A stretch of 64,000 nt of DNA from Natranaerofaba carboxydovora (GTDB lineage: Bacteria > Bacillota > Natranaerobiia > Natranaerobiales > Natranaerofabaceae), in the NCBI RefSeq assembly GCF_022539405.1, contig NZ_CP054394.1, positions 1,366,501-1,430,500 on the forward strand, given 5' to 3'. The notes under the pieces are model-generated. The model saw only the letters and a list, made by a program, of their open reading frames with translations, had not been told where the DNA came from and did not search any database. A program made the translations under genes and the position numbers. Below are positions 48,051 through 54,946 of this stretch, one piece after another. Numbering within the stretch: the first letter of the stretch is position 1; every line of letters starts with the position of its first letter.

Positions 48051-48851
48051 CTATTCATCTTCTATTACAGACTTAACCATATTCCTTGAAGACATCTCAA
48101 AGTTAGAAACTAAAGAAATAAATTTTGTGTCCTTATAGTGCAGGGCTTTGTCAATCTTTTTGATGCTTAAGCCTTTTCTTCTTAACTCTAATATTTTTTC
48201 TTTTTCTTCTTCTAAAAATTCTAATTTATCTCTCAGCATTTTTTTGCCATTTGGTACAGCTCCGGCATGACTACAAAATAACGTGTCAAAATCATATTCT
48301 AATAACTTTTTTATATCTCTCATTAGTTGATAGTAATTTTCCTGCTTATAAAAAAGTTTAGTTTTAGTAGAAATAAATACATCACCTGTAAACATCACGC
48401 CTTTGTCAGGGACAAAAAAGCAGACATGGTCCCTTGAGTGACATGGAGTATCAATCACATTTACTTTGTTTCCAGAAATGCTGAAAGTGTCGGGGAGTTC
48501 TACGGCTTTAATACCAGGTCTTACCCCCCAAAACACTCTTCTATATAGTGGTAAAGATGGTCTTTTCTCCAAAAGCTTTATGGAGCTTGAATTTGCATGG
48601 ATATCAAGCCCAAATCTTTTAAGTAAGAATGCATTACCACTGTGATCTTCATGGTAGTGGGTCAGGATAACCTTTTTGATATCTTTGCTATCAAAAAAGT
48701 CCAAAAAAAGCCCGGATGCACGAACCGGGCCAGTATCAATCAATAATCCATCAAAGTAATAAATATATACATCCATAGAATTACCAAAGACTCTTATAGT
48801 AGTTTTGGCACATGTAACTCCTTCACATGAAGATATCTCTAACCTTGCCAA
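48051..48851 (-). CDS. MBL-fold metallo-hydrolase
   Basis: A 266-residue metallo-beta-lactamase-fold protein: LTHYHEDHSGN is the HxHxDH metal motif, DTPCHSRDHVCFF supplies the next His, FTGDVFI the bridging Asp, and LFCSHAGAV the last His. The C-terminal helical tail (about 200-266) carries RRKGLSIKKIDKALHYKD. The start is TTG 48851, six bases after GAGGTG, because the ATG is immediately adjacent to that site. It is the last gene of the minus-strand run that begins at the cobalamin riboswitch at 53.5 kb, 18 bases after ubiD. Substrate unknown; a thioester or ester linked to aromatic acid metabolism is one possibility. Confidence 0.85.
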   Translation of the reverse strand: MARLEISSCEGVTCAKTTIRVFGNSMDVYIYYFDGLLIDTGPVRASGLFLDFFDSKDIKKVILTHYHEDHSGNAFLLKRFGLDIHANSSSIKLLEKRPSLPLYRRVFWGVRPGIKAVELPDTFSISGNKVNVIDTPCHSRDHVCFFVPDKGVMFTGDVFISTKTKLFYKQENYYQLMRDIKKLLEYDFDTLFCSHAGAVPNGKKMLRDKLEFLEEEKEKILELRRKGLSIKKIDKALHYKDTKFISLVSNFEMSSRNMVKSVIEDE

Positions 48852-48869
48852 AAACATCACCTCAAAGTT

Positions 48870-50236
48870 TTACAAATCTGATATTATCTTTTTTACTTTA
48901 TTAAGGACCTCTGGGTCTGTTTTTATTCGAGGCGAAAAGTCATCAAGGGACATAGTAGCATCGATTCCCATCTTTGCCGTACGACTAAGTTCATCAGTTG
49001 AAGGGTCTAAAGTTTCACCCATACCAAGATTTTGTGGAGTTATAATCGTATCTTGATCTGCCTGCATCCTTGTACATATCGCCCATAAAACTTCTTCTTC
49101 GTTAAACACATCCACATCTTCGTCAACCACTACGGCTAGTTTTATATGATGATCAATTGCAAAGGCATTAAATATAGCCTGCAGGGGTTGGCCTTCGGCT
49201 GTCTTTTTCATGGCAATATAACAGTGAAATAGACCGCAGCTCGAGAGCGGGACATGGACATTTTTAATATTGGGAAGCTTTTCATTTAGAGCATTAAGTA
49301 AATCCCCTTCTCGCTGTACAGCAATTATTGTGTTGTGTTCAGCGCACATTCCTGGTGTAATACATTGATATATCGGGTTATTACGGTACTGAATATTTAT
49401 CACCTTAAAAACATTCTCCGTGCTTCTATGACAAGCATATCCTGTGAATTCTGCAAAAGGTCCTTCTGGTTCTCTTTCATTAGCTAAAATCTCGCCTTCT
49501 ATTACAATCTCTGCCCAAGCAGGTACTTCTAAATCAATTGTACTACAAGGTGTTAATTCCATAGGTTCATCAAAAAGTCCTCCCATTGCTTCAAATTTTC
49601 CTAGATGATAAGGTACAAGGGCCATAGAACCAAGGGAAATATTTGGGTGAACACCTAGGACAACTGCTGCTTCTAAATTTTGATTATTCTCTTCAGCGCG
49701 TCTAAAGTATTCCCACAACCTTTGTCTAGAGTGAAGACTTATCCCAAGTTTATCTTTACCTTTTAGCTGCATACGGTGATAACCAGCTGTGTTTGCACCT
49801 GTTTTTGGATCTTTGGTAACTACAAGCCCTGCTGTGATATATGGACTGGCATCAATGGGAAAGTGCGTTAATATTGGGAATCTATTCAAATCTATATCTT
49901 CTCCAGACAAATTATTTTCCATAAAAGGAGCCTTGTCCAAAATTTTGGGTTCTATTCTATTAGTTATACGTTTGGCGTATTCAAATGATATGTCTTCTTC
50001 ATCTACACCCATTGCAAGGGCAAAACGTTCTCTACCCGCTATAGTATTTGCTACCACAGGTATTTCATTATCATCAATATTATTGAATTTGATTACAGGC
50101 TTCTTACCCATCCTTTCTAATTCTAGGACCATTGCTGTAGGTTCATACTTTGAAGATAATTTGTGATCTATCTCTAGTAATCCCTGTGAATCTTTTTTCT
50201 AACTTCATCCAAAAATGTCCTCCAGTCTTGTTTCAT
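48870..50236 (-). CDS. ubiD: UbiD family prenyl-FMN-dependent decarboxylase, frameshifted near the N-terminus
   Basis: UbiD enzymes decarboxylate aromatic or alpha,beta-unsaturated acids using prenylated FMN made by UbiX. Residues such as TAGLVVTKDPKTGANTAGYH, LGVHPNISLGSM and EREPEGPFAEFTGYACH (region of the catalytic Glu pair) are characteristic. The natural start is ATG 50236 (GGGAGGT six bases upstream): MKQDWRTFLDEVRKK is followed by a stop. The continuation DSQGLLEIDHKLSSKYEPTA joins the long frame (48870-50132) only if one A is added to the six-A run at about 50192-50197. With that base the protein would be 455 residues, a normal length. Either a sequencing error, a real mutation or slippage. 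Confidence 0.85.
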
Positions 50237-50283
50237 GCCAATACCTCCCAGAGATGATTTTAATATATGTCATGAATAAACTT

Positions 50284-51042
50284 TTAATTTAGAGTATTTA
50301 TAAATATGACTAGAAAAAATAATACAAATGATGTTGTAGAAAATACTATATCTTTAGAATTAAATTTTAACTCTTTTAAGAAAGTTCTTTTTGAAGCATA
50401 ACCAAATCCTTTAAGTTCCATTGACAGTGCCACCTGATGAGTACGTCGAAGTGCTCTAAGAAGGAGGGGCAGGATCACCGGAATAAAACCTTTGATTTTT
50501 TGTGAAAGTGTTGATAGTTCAAGGCCCCTAATTTGCTGGCTATCATATATAGTTTTTAATTCTTTTTCTAATAAAGGCAAGAATTTGAAGGCAAGGCCAC
50601 CTAATATAGCATATCTATAGGGCAATTTGAATTTGACAAGCATAAGAGCAAGTTCATCAGGATGACACCAGGTCAAAAACTGCATAAATAAATTCATCCA
50701 GATAAATAATCTAATCGAAACCAAAAGCCCAAGATAGATCCCTCCACTGTAAAGTTTGATTAAATTCCATTCAAAAAGTAAATCTCCTGTTTGGTGAAAT
50801 AACCCTTGAATTATAGTAAGCTGGATCAAAAGGATTAACATTATTTTTGTCATTTTCCATAGTTTTGACCATTCTATTCCACCTGCACTACCTACTAGGA
50901 TAACAACTGCTAATTGCATAATCATAAGCCATAGGTCTGTTGTGATTAACGCAGCAGCCGCCATTAATAAAGCCCAGAGAAGTTTTGACCTTGGATCTAA
51001 ATCATAGATTTTATTGTTGTTGATTTGGCTTGACTTTTCCAC
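50284..51042 (-). CDS. ecfT: ECF transporter transmembrane component (EcfT)
   Basis: A 252-residue membrane protein with about five to six helices and the two coupling-helix motifs typical of EcfT: SQQIRGLELSTLSQK (A-R-G pattern) and ALSMELKGFGYASKR. EcfT couples ATP hydrolysis by the EcfA subunits to substrate import through an S component. The start is GTG 51042, following GGAGG and overlapping the ATPase stop region; the longer TTG start at 51063 would include the ribosome site. Third gene after S component and fused ATPase. Confidence 0.9.
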   Translation of the reverse strand: MEKSSQINNNKIYDLDPRSKLLWALLMAAAALITTDLWLMIMQLAVVILVGSAGGIEWSKLWKMTKIMLILLIQLTIIQGLFHQTGDLLFEWNLIKLYSGGIYLGLLVSIRLFIWMNLFMQFLTWCHPDELALMLVKFKLPYRYAILGGLAFKFLPLLEKELKTIYDSQQIRGLELSTLSQKIKGFIPVILPLLLRALRRTHQVALSMELKGFGYASKRTFLKELKFNSKDIVFSTTSFVLFFLVIFINTLN

Positions 51043-51043
51043 T

Positions 51044-52633
51044 TCAATGAGCCTCCGTTTCAAGGATTTGTGGATTTGTAGTAAATTCAGAAGTAAATTC
51101 TAGCGGCGAGTCATCAAAAATTACCTTGCTATCGTCTAACATAATTATCCTATCTGAATATTTCAAAGCCATCTCTATATCGTGAGTTATTAATATTACT
51201 GATCTGTCTTTATTAGAGAGCTTTCTTAATAAGTTCATTATTTTTAATGTTGTATTATAGTCAACACCATTACAGGGTTCATCCATAATAATGACATCTG
51301 GATCATTAATTAATGCAGATGCTATTCCAAGTAGTTGTATATTTCCCTTAGAGAGCCTATATGGATGCAGCTCGGCTACGTTTTCTATGCCTAGATTTTG
51401 AAGCAGTTTATTTACTTTGATTTTTCGTTCTTCATTAGAAACCCCCTGTATCTCTAGGCTGTATTCAATCTGTTCAAATACAGTATTTTTGAATATCTGC
51501 CACTCTGGATTTTGAAACATATAACCAATTTTATTTGCTAGTTGCAATCTTCTATATTCCTCTAAAGGTTTATTATCTAATATCACTGTTCCTTCTGTCG
51601 GGGTTAATAGTTTAACTATATGCTTAGCTAGAGTAGTTTTACCAGCGCCGTTTTTACCAATCAAAGAGATAAACTCTTTTCTTCCAATATCCAAATTCAC
51701 ATCTTTAATTCCACATTCACCACTGGGATAATAATGGCTTAAGTTTTGTATCTTGATTATAGGTTCAAAAGCTTTTATTTTATTTTTATTGTCATTTAAA
51801 TCATCTGTGTTATCTGTCTTATAATTTGTCTTGTCCCTTAACTCATCGGTTCTTGTGCCTATGTTAGATGGTATCCTGATTCCTAAACTGTTTAGCTTAT
51901 CAAGATTTTCATCAGCCCAGAAATAATCAGCGTCCTGATCGATCACTATGTTGCCGTTTTTTAGTACAATATATCTGCTGGCAAAATCAATCACCTCATC
52001 AAACCTATCTTCGATCATTATCATTGTTTTATTTTCCTGATGGCATAGCTTTTTTAGGTTTTGATAGATTTGCTTTCTGCCTAACGGATCAAGCTCCCCA
52101 GCAGGTAGATCCAAAATTAAAATATCCTGATTAAGGGCAAGAATACTTGCAAGGACAACCCTTTGTGCTTCTCCTCCAGAGAGAGTTTCTGGGTTTCTAT
52201 GACGATAATTTTCTAAACCAACAGATGACAAAGCTTTTTCTACTCTATTTTTTATTTCGTCTTTTGGCAGCATTAGATTTCCCGGTCCAAAGGCAACATC
52301 TTCTTCCACGCTCAAATGAAAAAGTTGATTTTGAGGATCCTCTAGAACAAGACCAATATCTTTAGCTAACTTTGGAAGTGATATAGATGAAATATCTTTG
52401 TCATCTAATCCTTTGTCTTTTAGGGAAACGCTGCCGTTGTAATCTCCTTCCACAAAATTCGGAATAGCTCCACAAAGACAGTAAGCAAGAGTGGTCTTAC
52501 CAGAAGCACCACCTCCGGTTATAACTACAATTTCTCCCTTTTTGATATCTAAATTGATATTTTCTAAAGCAGGAGTTTTTGTTCCAGGATAATAAAAATA
52601 GTTTATTTGTGCTTCTAAAACATTCCTTGTCAT
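51044..52633 (-). CDS. ecfA: ECF transporter fused dual ATPase (EcfA-EcfA')
   Basis: A 529-residue protein with two ABC domains. Domain 1 (about 1-235): Walker A GGGASGKTT, signature LSGGEAQRV, Walker B ILILDLPAGELD, in which the catalytic Glu after Asp is Leu. Domain 2 (about 290-520): Walker A GKNGAGKTT, signature LSKGNIQLLG (degenerate), Walker B VIIMDEPCNGVD (normal) and switch His in LITHDIE. So one composite ATP site looks intact and the other degenerate. It energises uptake together with EcfT and the S component on either side. Confidence 0.93.
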   Translation of the reverse strand: MTRNVLEAQINYFYYPGTKTPALENINLDIKKGEIVVITGGGASGKTTLAYCLCGAIPNFVEGDYNGSVSLKDKGLDDKDISSISLPKLAKDIGLVLEDPQNQLFHLSVEEDVAFGPGNLMLPKDEIKNRVEKALSSVGLENYRHRNPETLSGGEAQRVVLASILALNQDILILDLPAGELDPLGRKQIYQNLKKLCHQENKTMIMIEDRFDEVIDFASRYIVLKNGNIVIDQDADYFWADENLDKLNSLGIRIPSNIGTRTDELRDKTNYKTDNTDDLNDNKNKIKAFEPIIKIQNLSHYYPSGECGIKDVNLDIGRKEFISLIGKNGAGKTTLAKHIVKLLTPTEGTVILDNKPLEEYRRLQLANKIGYMFQNPEWQIFKNTVFEQIEYSLEIQGVSNEERKIKVNKLLQNLGIENVAELHPYRLSKGNIQLLGIASALINDPDVIIMDEPCNGVDYNTTLKIMNLLRKLSNKDRSVILITHDIEMALKYSDRIIMLDDSKVIFDDSPLEFTSEFTTNPQILETEAH

Positions 52634-52686
52634 ATAAAATCACCTATCTTCTTAATAACTTAACTTATTAGTATTTTTTGTATTAT

Positions 52687-53253
52687 TTAGATTGTAAGCC
52701 CTGCTCTTTCAATCAAGCGTGAAATATATATTGTTGCCGCTGTTCCACCAGCAGTACCAACTGCTGCAGTCAAAATTGAAAGCCCTAATACCACAGGTAC
52801 TGGTAAATTTAAAATATAATACATCCCAAGTCCAGTACATATATTCCCTGTAATATTTGTGGCTGCCTGTGCCAAAAGAAAATGATACCATTTTTCCATA
52901 GAAAACATTGAAGAGGAAATAGAAAAAGCTATTGAACCAAGCCCGTTAGCGGGGATAAAAAATACAGCAAGGGGCGAAAGACCAGAAGCTATTGCAATTA
53001 AAGCCTGGGTCTCTCCCATAATCACTCCTGCAGGTTGACGTAAAAGATATGCAACAAAACCCGTAAAGGTAGCCCACGACACCCCACCGATAATTAAAAG
53101 TCCAGGAAAAATCATATTGTCAATCCTGTGTGCAACCTGCTGGGCAAGAACAAAAACCACACCAATCAAAATTGCTCCAACTAAAGCTTTGGTATCTACC
53201 CTCCAAAACTTTTTGGTGCTTACGGTACTTTCAAAAGTTTGATTTGGTAACAT
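52687..53253 (-). CDS. ECF transporter substrate-binding S component
   Basis: A 188-residue membrane protein with about five to six helices (KALVGAILIGVVFVLAQQV; LLIIGGVSWATFTGFVAYLL; VVLGLSILTAAVGTAGGTA). Small size, helix pattern and position before fused EcfA and EcfT identify it as an S component. Its gene is preceded by a cobalamin riboswitch, so the obvious substrates are cobalamin, a cobamide precursor or its lower-ligand base. Co-location with ubiD leaves an aromatic acid as an alternative. Start ATG 53253 follows GGAGGG. Confidence 0.82.
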   Translation of the reverse strand: MLPNQTFESTVSTKKFWRVDTKALVGAILIGVVFVLAQQVAHRIDNMIFPGLLIIGGVSWATFTGFVAYLLRQPAGVIMGETQALIAIASGLSPLAVFFIPANGLGSIAFSISSSMFSMEKWYHFLLAQAATNITGNICTGLGMYYILNLPVPVVLGLSILTAAVGTAGGTAATIYISRLIERAGLTI

Positions 53254-53312
53254 AAAGGCGGACCCTCCTAGAATTAATTTAAAATATTATTTAACTAGTA
53301 GTACCTAAACAA

Positions 53313-53346
53313 CAAAAAAAGCCCCCAAGCAATGCTTGAGGACTTT
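53313..53346 (-). terminator. Expression-platform terminator of cobalamin riboswitch 1
   Basis: AAGTCCTCAAGC / GCTTGGGGGCTT (with G-U pairs) followed by TTTTTTTG on the minus strand. It lies between the aptamer and the S-component gene, so B12 binding would be expected to favour termination. Confidence 0.85.
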
Positions 53347-53562
53347 ACCATCGTCCTTCAAGGTAACCTTCTAGTTCATAGTAGGCAACCCGGCTGTACA
53401 GGCAGGTCTACTGGCTCCAGTTCACAGTTTCCTTAAACCTTCCCATTCCCCTTATTTAATCTTGAGGAACAGTGGCATAACTTAAGGTCACTCCCCGTTA
53501 CAGTGGCGGGACCGCTCAGGTCTTTCACCTGATTCCCTAGCACCTGCACGCCGTTTTATATT
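53347..53562 (-). ncRNA. Cobalamin riboswitch 1 (upstream of the ECF/ubiD operon)
   Basis: On the minus strand the conserved landmarks appear in order: AGGTGCTAGGGAATCAGGTG, GACCTGAGCGGTCCCGCCACTGT, ATGCCACTGT, GAGCCAGTAGACCTGCC (B12 box), then GGACGATGG before the terminator. This is the arrangement of the AdoCbl/cobalamin riboswitch. It would repress the S component-EcfA-EcfT-UbiD-MBL genes when B12 is plentiful. Confidence 0.93.
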
Positions 53563-53610
53563 AAATTTCATTCAATCTCTGTCAACCCTGACGACTATTC
53601 AGTGAAAATT

Positions 53611-54000
53611 TTAGCTCAATTTCAAAGTTCTGTCAAGTAGGTCATAAGCTACTTCATAACAGTTGTTTGATAACTTTTCTATATCTTTTTGGTCAGCATT
53701 TGGTACATGAATACCTGCTATAACTGTCACAACCTGATTTAACTCTTTAGCAAACATCTCTGATATGGGCTTAGCTACAATATCATCTTTGTGGCCTGTC
53801 ATATTAAAGACAGATGTTGTACAGCTTGTCTTAATACTATTTTCATTTTTGGTTTTTCTTGGAATGCTAATAATCACAGTACCTATATGAGGTTTTTCAC
53901 CGCCAAGTATTTGTATTATCACACCCTCACTAGTGTAAGTAAGCTGACCGTACACAATAAAATTTTGCTCCCCTGTTTTTGAAACCAAAGTTTCTATCAT
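53611..54000 (-). CDS. LpdD/VdcD-like prenyl-flavin decarboxylase accessory protein
   Basis: A 129-residue protein. GGEKPHIGTVIISIPR, the central TGHKDDIVAKPISEMFA and VVTVIAGIHVPNAD match the small third protein (LpdD/VdcD/BsdD-like) encoded with UbiX and UbiD partners in hydroxybenzoate, vanillate and gallate decarboxylase operons, where it is thought to help with the prenylated flavin. It follows ubiX by four bases, with AAGGTGGGAG before the ATG. Its presence argues that the system decarboxylates an aromatic hydroxy acid rather than serving quinone synthesis. Confidence 0.75.
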   Translation of the reverse strand: MIETLVSKTGEQNFIVYGQLTYTSEGVIIQILGGEKPHIGTVIISIPRKTKNENSIKTSCTTSVFNMTGHKDDIVAKPISEMFAKELNQVVTVIAGIHVPNADQKDIEKLSNNCYEVAYDLLDRTLKLS

Positions 54001-54004
54001 ACTG

Positions 54005-54559
54005 TTACTCCCACCTTTTGATCAAGTCATTTTCTATTCCTAACTGATCTAAGACCCTTGAAACAGTATGGTCTACTATATCATTAATGCTTTGGGGTTT
54101 GTGATAAAAAGCAGGCAAAGGAGGCATTATAACAGCTCCAATTTTGGATAGCTTTAGCATATTTTCTAAATGTATTGCAGTCAAAGGCGTTTCTCTTGGC
54201 AAAAGAACTAGTTTCCTGTTTTCTTTAATAGCTACTGATGCAGCCCTTGTAACTAAGTTATCATCATAGCCTTGAGAAATTCCTGCAAGGGTCTTCATAC
54301 TACATGGTGCTATAACCATTCCATCATGTCTAAATGAACCACTAGAGATTGATGCACATAACTCATTTTCATCATAGATTGTATCAGCAAGTTCTTTTAT
54401 GAAAGAGACGTTATAATCTGTTTCTATTTCGATTGTTTTTCTAGCCCAGCTTGTCAAAATCAAATGTGTTTTAATATTCTTATATTGACTTAAAATTTCT
54501 AATAATCTTATCCCATATATTGCTCCTGATGCTCCAGTGATAGCAAGTACTATTATCAT
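54005..54559 (-). CDS. ubiX: UbiX family flavin prenyltransferase
   Basis: A 184-residue flavoprotein. AITGASGAIYGIRLLEIL binds the FMN phosphate; SSGSFRHDGMVIAPCSMKTLA and LLPRETPLTAIHLENML are the UbiX signatures around the active site. It attaches dimethylallyl phosphate to FMN to make the UbiD cofactor. The start is ATG 54559 after GGAGGAG; the much longer open frame upstream is only the riboswitch read as protein. It is preceded by cobalamin riboswitch 2 and followed at once by the LpdD-like gene. Confidence 0.93.
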   Translation of the reverse strand: MIIVLAITGASGAIYGIRLLEILSQYKNIKTHLILTSWARKTIEIETDYNVSFIKELADTIYDENELCASISSGSFRHDGMVIAPCSMKTLAGISQGYDDNLVTRAASVAIKENRKLVLLPRETPLTAIHLENMLKLSKIGAVIMPPLPAFYHKPQSINDIVDHTVSRVLDQLGIENDLIKRWE

Positions 54560-54605
54560 AAGCTCTCCTCCTTTGTAGATTTTTGATACTTCTATTAACC
54601 CCAAA

Positions 54606-54645
54606 AAAAGTCCTCCATCAAATACAATATTTTGATGGAGGACTT
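54606..54645 (-). terminator. Expression-platform terminator of cobalamin riboswitch 2
   Basis: AAAGTCCTCCATC / GATGGAGGACTTT, a perfect 13-bp stem, followed by TTTTTTTGGGG on the minus strand, between the aptamer and ubiX. Confidence 0.9.
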
Positions 54646-54646
54646 T

Positions 54647-54875
54647 GCCATCATCCTCATCACCCGAAAATAATAAGGCAGGTCTCCTGGCTATCAAGTC
54701 ATGGCCTTTTGGACAGAGCCTTCCCAACTTAAATTAGCCAGTGGCTGCTGCCCGGCTCCTCGAATACAGTGGTGGGTCCGCTCCGTTCATGACATATGAC
54801 ATTTGGGATAAGTACCCAAATACCACTCAGATTCCCTATTATCCCTGAAACAGGCACCTTATTATCTTAGATGTT
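54647..54875 (-). ncRNA. Cobalamin riboswitch 2 (upstream of ubiX-lpdD)
   Basis: Minus-strand landmarks in order: AAGGTGCCTGTTTCAGGG, AATAGGGAATCTGAGTGG, GGAGCGGACCCACCACTGT, AGCCACTGGC, GAAGGCTCTGTCC, AGCCAGGAGACCTGCC (B12 box) and GATGAGGATGATGG, then the terminator hairpin. It is a full cobalamin riboswitch directly ahead of ubiX, which is unusual for a decarboxylase cofactor gene. Confidence 0.93.
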
Positions 54876-54946
54876 ATTAACTTTTAACAGTATATTATCA
54901 TAAAGGCTAAATTTTGTTAACTATAATTTTAGTAAAATAATATAAG

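Follow-up and report, generated by a model that had tools for sequence, protein, structure and literature searches.

Why would an aromatic-acid decarboxylase and an energy-coupling factor (ECF) importer be placed under the control of vitamin B12? The question is raised by a gene cluster in a 64,000-nt stretch of the Natranaerofaba carboxydovora genome (the window), in which two cobalamin riboswitches precede ubiX, an lpdD-like gene, an ECF transporter and ubiD. Cobalamin riboswitches normally control B12 synthesis, uptake or B12-independent isoenzymes, and UbiX makes prenylated flavin mononucleotide (prenyl-FMN) for UbiD. A sequence-only reading of the window had proposed a decarboxylase system, made when B12 is scarce and coupled to a dedicated importer. 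The explanation that we favour, at a probability of roughly 0.45, is that the operon imports a heteroaromatic precursor at low B12 and decarboxylates it to the lower-ligand base of a cobamide.

Riboswitches, genes and the ubiD reading frame

With cmscan, the region from 40 to 62 kb gave exactly two matches to the cobalamin riboswitch family RF00174, both of them full-length, on the - strand and above the Rfam gathering score of 31.5 bits (95.1 and 79.1 bits), so that the two RNAs named in the sequence-only reading pass the covariance check. Directly 3' of each aptamer lies a terminator hairpin with a U run (Table 1). Because this strong hairpin follows each aptamer, both riboswitches are probably OFF switches of a transcription-terminating layout, and the same order of aptamer and terminator agrees with the suggestion that the system is made at low B12. 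Genome-wide, nine RF00174 elements are present in 3.26 Mb, the window pair included.

On the - strand the order is riboswitch 1, ubiX, the lpdD-like gene, riboswitch 2, S component, fused EcfAA', EcfT, ubiD and a metallo-beta-lactamase (MBL)-fold hydrolase. The ECF transporter is recognised by its ATPase domains (TIGR04520/TIGR04521), by EcfT (PF02361) and by the fold of the S component; the dedicated importer that had been proposed therefore does possess its own S component, ATPase and T component. An LpdD-like ortholog with 43% identity adjoins ubiX in a relative (locus L036). The MBL hydrolase gene is probably co-transcribed with ubiD, and is absent from the operon of every relative (36 related loci). 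No plasmid carriage of the gene set was found.

Table 1. Features of the riboswitch-controlled cluster (positions in the window)
Feature	Position	Strand	Evidence and remarks
Cobalamin riboswitch 1	54660..54876	-	RF00174 79.1 bits, E 2.7e-18, full model 1-189; upstream of ubiX-lpdD
Intrinsic terminator 1	54607..54646	-	16-bp stem + U run, -24.0 kcal/mol, z -5.1, 0/200 shuffles as stable
ubiX, flavin prenyltransferase, 184 aa	54005..54559	-	TIGR00421 275 bits (cut-off 109); GGAGG ribosome site
lpdD-like gene, putative prenyl-FMN chaperone	53611..54000	-	Pfam PF21758 (PAC_bac) 104 bits
Cobalamin riboswitch 2	53384..53561	-	RF00174 95.1 bits, E 7.1e-23; upstream of ECF operon
Intrinsic terminator 2	53318..53346	-	Hairpin + U run, -25.1 kcal/mol, z -5.6, no shuffle as stable
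ECF S component, YkoE-like family, 188 aa, 6 transmembrane helices	52687..53253	-	Orthologs 37-60%; fold model
Fused EcfA-EcfA' ATPase, YkoD-like arrangement	51044..52633	-	TIGR04521 376 bits, TIGR04520 374 bits, both above cut-off
EcfT	50284..51063	-	Pfam PF02361 (CbiQ) 97 bits
ubiD, prenyl-FMN-dependent decarboxylase	48870..50236	-	TIGR00148; ATG 50236, frame change 50200-50192, main reading frame 50132-48870
MBL-fold hydrolase	48051..48860	-	9 nt after ubiD

The sequence-only reading had named all of these genes as they stand and had overlooked a frame shift near the 5' end of ubiD. The annotated ubiD reading frame begins at an internal ATG, without the true start. A GGAGG Shine-Dalgarno sequence and the upstream ATG open MKQDWRTFLDEVRKK, with a stop a few codons later. 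From the run A AAA AAG near codon 15 onward, the rest of ubiD has to be read in the -1 frame. Translated in this way, residues 1-35 match the L036 ortholog (MNQDWRAFLDSFEVQFPREVLRIKEELNRKYEPTA) with no gaps; the ubiD orthologs inspected are each in a single frame. Programmed -1 frameshifting was considered and set aside: the run is a dnaX-type slippery heptamer and would fit, yet no downstream structure stands out. The downstream RNA is no more stable than its shuffles (z -0.77), which makes a homopolymer indel of one base, whether technical or real, the likelier cause.

The break also raises the possibility that the module is decaying in the source genome, with ubiD inactivated by the indel, the HyuA/HyuB partners found in relatives unlinked and only the importer still of importance. 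A frame change at a homopolymer without significant downstream structure would fit such decay, as would the nearest HyuA of the genome, which is only 40% identical and unlinked. Nevertheless, the 420-codon main reading frame is otherwise intact with all catalytic residues, and no damage is seen in ubiX, lpdD or either riboswitch. The break could also come from an indel in the sequencing or from -1 frameshifting; we consider decay very improbable.

Linkage of importer and decarboxylase in relatives

In a phylum sample of 299 genomes the S component is present in 16, including one distant member and the source genome, and the UbiD clade in 11, all of which are within those 16 (hypergeometric p 1.2e-16, phylogeny ignored). 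This linkage is not chance. In named genomes the S component was found at 28 loci with 37-60% identity, the carriers being Thermincola, many Desulfosporosinus, Acetobacterium, metagenome-assembled genomes (MAGs) of Actinomycetota, and one MAG each of Synergistaceae and Methanomassiliicoccus. Among 36 distinct related loci (Bacillota, Actinomycetota, Synergistota), RF00174 is present at the operon in 32, EcfA in 33, EcfT in 31, orthologous UbiD in 18 (60-67% identity), HyuA in 16, HyuB in 14, UbiX in 7 and LpdD in 6; the conservation of linkage whose lack would have counted against the sequence-only reading is thus strong. The commonest order is riboswitch-ecfAA'-ecfT-S-ubiD-hyuA-hyuB(-ubiX-lpdD), with riboswitch-hyuA-hyuB-S-ubiD-ecfA-ecfT and divergent ubiX-lpdD in L036, riboswitch-S-ubiD-hyuA-hyuB-ecfA-ecfT in L051, and, much as in the window, genes split behind two riboswitches in L057. 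HyuA and HyuB are nearest to caprolactamase and acetophenone carboxylase subunits, below cut-off.

A further partner is a tungsten-type aldehyde:ferredoxin oxidoreductase (AOR). In the source genome another RF00174 element (L030) precedes a 107-aa ferredoxin-like protein and an AOR, and this pair lies directly behind the S component at three loci of relatives (L037, L038, L039), with AOR orthologs that are 63-84% identical; the B12-switched pair is part of the same regulon as the ECF/UbiD module of the source genome. Carriers have the importer with UbiD/HyuAB, with AOR and ferredoxin, with both kinds of partner, or alone; the source genome has UbiD and AOR, and one genome (G011) has UbiD, HyuAB and AOR/ferredoxin. 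Although the sequence-only reading was right about the genes of the window, it had missed both the HyuA/HyuB usual in relatives and this B12-switched AOR pair.

These data also bear on whether the cluster serves ordinary catabolism or detoxification of aromatic acids and stands behind riboswitches by chance. UbiX/UbiD/LpdD sets are indeed common in catabolism, and corrinoid methyltransferase-like genes are found near some loci. However, ECF importers serve scarce micronutrients, and a riboswitch retained at the great majority of the related loci across phyla is too consistent for chance, which makes a catabolic role highly unlikely.

Two loci differ from the usual pattern. At L048:1229-6841, a distant relative of the S component (25%) and ECF genes are linked to hydantoinase-like and racemase-like genes, a hint that some members of the family carry hydantoin-like compounds. 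G011 has, next to ubiD-hyuA-hyuB at a contig end, another ECF set that lacks an S component (L169:4024-11685), and an S-ferredoxin-AOR operon is located elsewhere.

Substrate clues in UbiD and the S component

Window UbiD scores 327.7 bits against TIGR00148 (cut-off 244.9), and its catalytic R-E-E triad (R120, E223, E228) is invariant in 18 orthologs. The enzyme had been placed in a hydroxybenzoate, vanillate or gallate decarboxylase trio, an assignment that is not supported: against the VdcC/LpdC model NF041204 it reaches 265.5 bits, far below the cut-off of 650. The nearest solved relative is instead HmfF, at a distance (265 bits, compared with 550-650 bits for orthologs). The residue H297 of HmfF, taken as chain position 296 in the alignment, has been named as key to furan-type specificity (PMC7976604). 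The corresponding pair, H266 and R274, is invariant in 18/18 UbiD orthologs and missing from E. coli UbiD and the indole-3-carboxylate enzyme, the only two compared; the alignment of the latter was obtained with a fragment query carrying a short arbitrary leader. R274 is presumably the partner Arg of the HmfF-type His. UbiD is thus nearest to HmfF, a decarboxylase of furan/pyrrole-type acids, and not to the gallate or vanillate enzymes. The module has in common with HmfF/HmfG the triad and the specificity His, but the latter belong to a catabolic hydroxymethylfurfural pathway, are distant and have neither ECF importer nor B12 control. With LpdBCD/VdcBCD, the hydroxyaryl acid decarboxylases, it shares the plan of UbiX, UbiD and a small third protein, although its UbiD is far from VdcC; those systems are not known to have a B12 riboswitch or importer.

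The S component has no match in Pfam or NCBIfam, and no sequence similarity to any chain of a solved structure was detectable. Its model (pLDDT 82) has six helices, and the high-probability matches in a fold search were only S components, with YkoE (5EDL) first, followed by ThiT and BioY. None of these has E < 0.001, so that the search fixes the fold and not the family. Profile alignment with YkoE gives a weak score of 20.1, where the highest of 30 shuffles reached 16.8; in it, YkoE Trp49, which stacks on the thiamine pyrimidine (5EDL), pairs with W60, invariant in 21 S-component sequences, and R61-x-P63 pairs with R72-x-P74. By manual count from the aligned W49 and P63, an aliphatic residue takes the place of Glu77 of YkoE, and the invariant N103 that of Gln95. 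Given that there is no family match and that, of the YkoE residues, W49 and P63 align and E77 is not kept, the S component is YkoE-like and not YkoE. A planar ring is a plausible ligand, and thiamine not, because W60 and R-x-P are kept while the Glu77 position is aliphatic. The fused ATPase and own T component are also the plan of YkoEDC (PMC5037267). That thiamine/hydroxymethylpyrimidine importer of B. subtilis (5EDL, PMC5037267) thus resembles the module in its dedicated S component, fused double ATPase, own T component, nearest fold and aligned Trp and R-x-P, and differs in being THI-box controlled, in its barely detectable sequence similarity and in its thiamine ligand Glu77.

The importer could alternatively take up a corrinoid or a corrin/pyrrole precursor, as ECF-CbrT does, with UbiD, HyuAB and AOR remodelling the precursor or merely co-regulated. 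Corrinoid importers are commonly found behind cobalamin riboswitches, the ECF genes frequently lack a linked UbiD, UbiD is nearest to HmfF, whose relatives act on five-membered rings, and HyuAB are nearest to a lactam hydrolase. On the other hand, CobT is present in all close carriers and B12-synthesis operons in those examined, when a B12 importer would be expected in auxotrophs too; the genes for UbiD and HyuAB are intermixed with the ECF genes in several different arrangements; and thiamine and biotin S components head the fold search, with no B12 S component among the 50 matches listed. ECF-CbrT, a cobalamin importer and in that respect similar, is likewise absent from the fold matches listed and from solved chains with sequence similarity. 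Corrinoid import is, on this evidence, unlikely.

A possible route to cobamide lower ligands

The sequence-only reading had also suggested that the system supplies or salvages a cobamide component, and here CobT, the B12 genes and a BzaC-like domain are in agreement, the substrate being inferred. CobT is present in 15/15 genomes with a clear S component, against 152/299 overall, and at one locus (L042) riboswitch-cobT stands directly before riboswitch-ECF-ubiD-hyuAB in one row. A protein of 409-426 aa comes after the operon in three genomes of a single family (L044-L046) and in L072, the Synergistaceae MAG. Its C-terminal DUF2284 domain is 42-48% identical to the C-terminus of a BzaC-like protein from the bza operons of two relatives, and its N-terminus is weakly BzaC-like. 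In addition, a gene for DUF2284 alone lies in front of the ECF genes in the archaeal (Methanomassiliicoccus) MAG. CobT and the genes of de novo B12 synthesis are present in the source genome, together with one ThiC-family gene over the ThiC cut-offs and below the BzaB cut-off; BzaA/BzaB was not found there, in a search that did not separately cover BzaF and BluB.

An alternative offered earlier was a B12-independent route, in which a vitamin-like compound would be imported at low B12 and processed to bypass a B12-dependent enzyme. Cobalamin riboswitches do control isoenzymes of this kind as well, yet no known B12-dependent reaction matches the chemistry of UbiD, HyuAB or AOR, and the neighbouring cobT and the BzaC-like protein speak for cobamide assembly. 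No positive evidence for an isoenzyme role was obtained, and we regard such a bypass as quite improbable.

In the scheme of lower-ligand supply, whose order of steps and product are proposed together with its substrate, scarcity of cobamide would leave both OFF riboswitches open. The four-part ECF importer, of YkoEDC type, would then take up, with high affinity, a precursor in the form of a planar ring. UbiX would make prenylated FMN, which the LpdD-like protein may help to handle or load, and UbiD would use this cofactor to decarboxylate a (hetero)aryl carboxylate. In relatives the acid may be prepared by HyuA/HyuB, relatives of ATP-dependent lactam/hydantoin hydrolases, or by the B12-switched tungsten AOR with its ferredoxin, and in the window the MBL hydrolase possibly acts in place of HyuAB. 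The product would most likely be a benzimidazole-type or other heterocyclic lower-ligand base, attached to the corrinoid by CobT.

Several points weigh against this scheme. The gene cobT adjoins the operon in only 1/36 loci, DUF2284 is a common domain, and many Desulfosporosinus have the ECF genes and no linked UbiD. Moreover, the frame change may leave ubiD of the window inactive, and BzaB is no rarer among carriers of the UbiD clade (3/11) than overall (28/299). As 3/11 UbiD carriers also have BzaB, there is no anticorrelation, and UbiD as a plain replacement for BzaAB was rejected. Phenolyl cobamides, which would be made from 4-hydroxybenzoate through phenol, are also unlikely because the source genome has one CobT-family gene instead of the two adjacent genes of the ArsAB system. 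A lumichrome-to-dimethylbenzimidazole route and salvage of a porphobilinogen lactam were set aside as speculations unsupported by the data.

Among known systems, the nearest described idea is CblT-CblS, a transporter and a kinase of alpha-ribazole that import and activate a component of the lower ligand (PMC8123684). The module would be similar in its proposed role of acquiring such a component; CblT-CblS has no decarboxylase, prenyl-FMN enzymes or HyuAB, and imports a ribosylated base. Its context is presumably also one of ECF transport and B12 riboswitches. The bzaABCDE operons share with the module a cobalamin riboswitch, a nearby CobT and the C-terminal domain of BzaC, found in several ECF-operon proteins, but form the base from aminoimidazole ribotide by ThiC-like enzymes, with neither importer nor UbiD. 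A literature search, whose coverage mostly excludes subscription papers, returned no paper with both "cobalamin riboswitch" and "UbiD", and none joining a B12 riboswitch with UbiX or hydantoinase. Proteomics of corrinoid starvation in Dehalobacter was discounted as a prior description, as its five riboswitch operons exclude this gene set. B12-regulated precursor acquisition is thus known in kind, and decarboxylation chemistry seems, as far as found, not to have been tied to it previously. Whether the module represents an undescribed anaerobic lower-ligand route, in which a prenyl-FMN decarboxylase acts on an imported heteroaromatic acid with HyuAB/tungsten AOR partners, independently of BluB and BzaAB/F, and which is common to Bacillota, Actinomycetota, Synergistota and perhaps an archaeon, is a broader and rather doubtful proposition.

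BzaB was found in 28/299 genomes and CobT in 152/299; because BzaB is missing from many of the anaerobes that make cobamides and have CobT, the origin of their lower ligand is often obscure. A conserved B12-switched importer and decarboxylase is a concrete candidate for obtaining the base. If this is correct, prenyl-FMN chemistry would enter cobamide assembly and a new S-component family would be explained, with consequences for which cobamide is made and thus for dehalogenation, acetogenesis and methyl transfer in cobamide-sharing communities.

The remaining RF00174 elements show the extent of B12 control. In the source genome others precede a B12-synthesis/cobalt-import operon and cobT, and in the relatives examined (by eye, except for CobT) they precede B12-synthesis, cobT, corrinoid/cobalt-import and often bzaAB operons. 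The best cobalamin riboswitch of the genome (135 bits; L027:777-961 (+), genome position 1930776) precedes a phosphatidylserine-synthase-like gene at 1226-1972 (TIGR00473 over cut-off), an unusual target, and a 132-bit element (L028:1035-1225 (+), genome position 3251834) precedes another, a flippase-like membrane protein (LPG_synthase_TM, 1381-2385). A third (L032:1127-1317 (+), genome position 1023126) stands before an ABC importer of the peptide/nickel type, which may carry cobalt or a chelate. No sense gene is evident behind a 125-bit element at L029:10529-10337 (-) (genome 20528-20336); because it points into the 3' end of an opposite-strand chemoreceptor (dCache-MCP) gene, it might drive a B12-regulated antisense RNA. 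Finally, at one locus in each of two relatives (L038:1133-3579 and L170:4461-6686) a cobalamin riboswitch controls a Zn alcohol/threonine-type dehydrogenase and an anthranilate-phosphoribosyltransferase-like gene (TIGR01245 over cut-off), for which activation of a base or supply of aminopropanol is a possible role.

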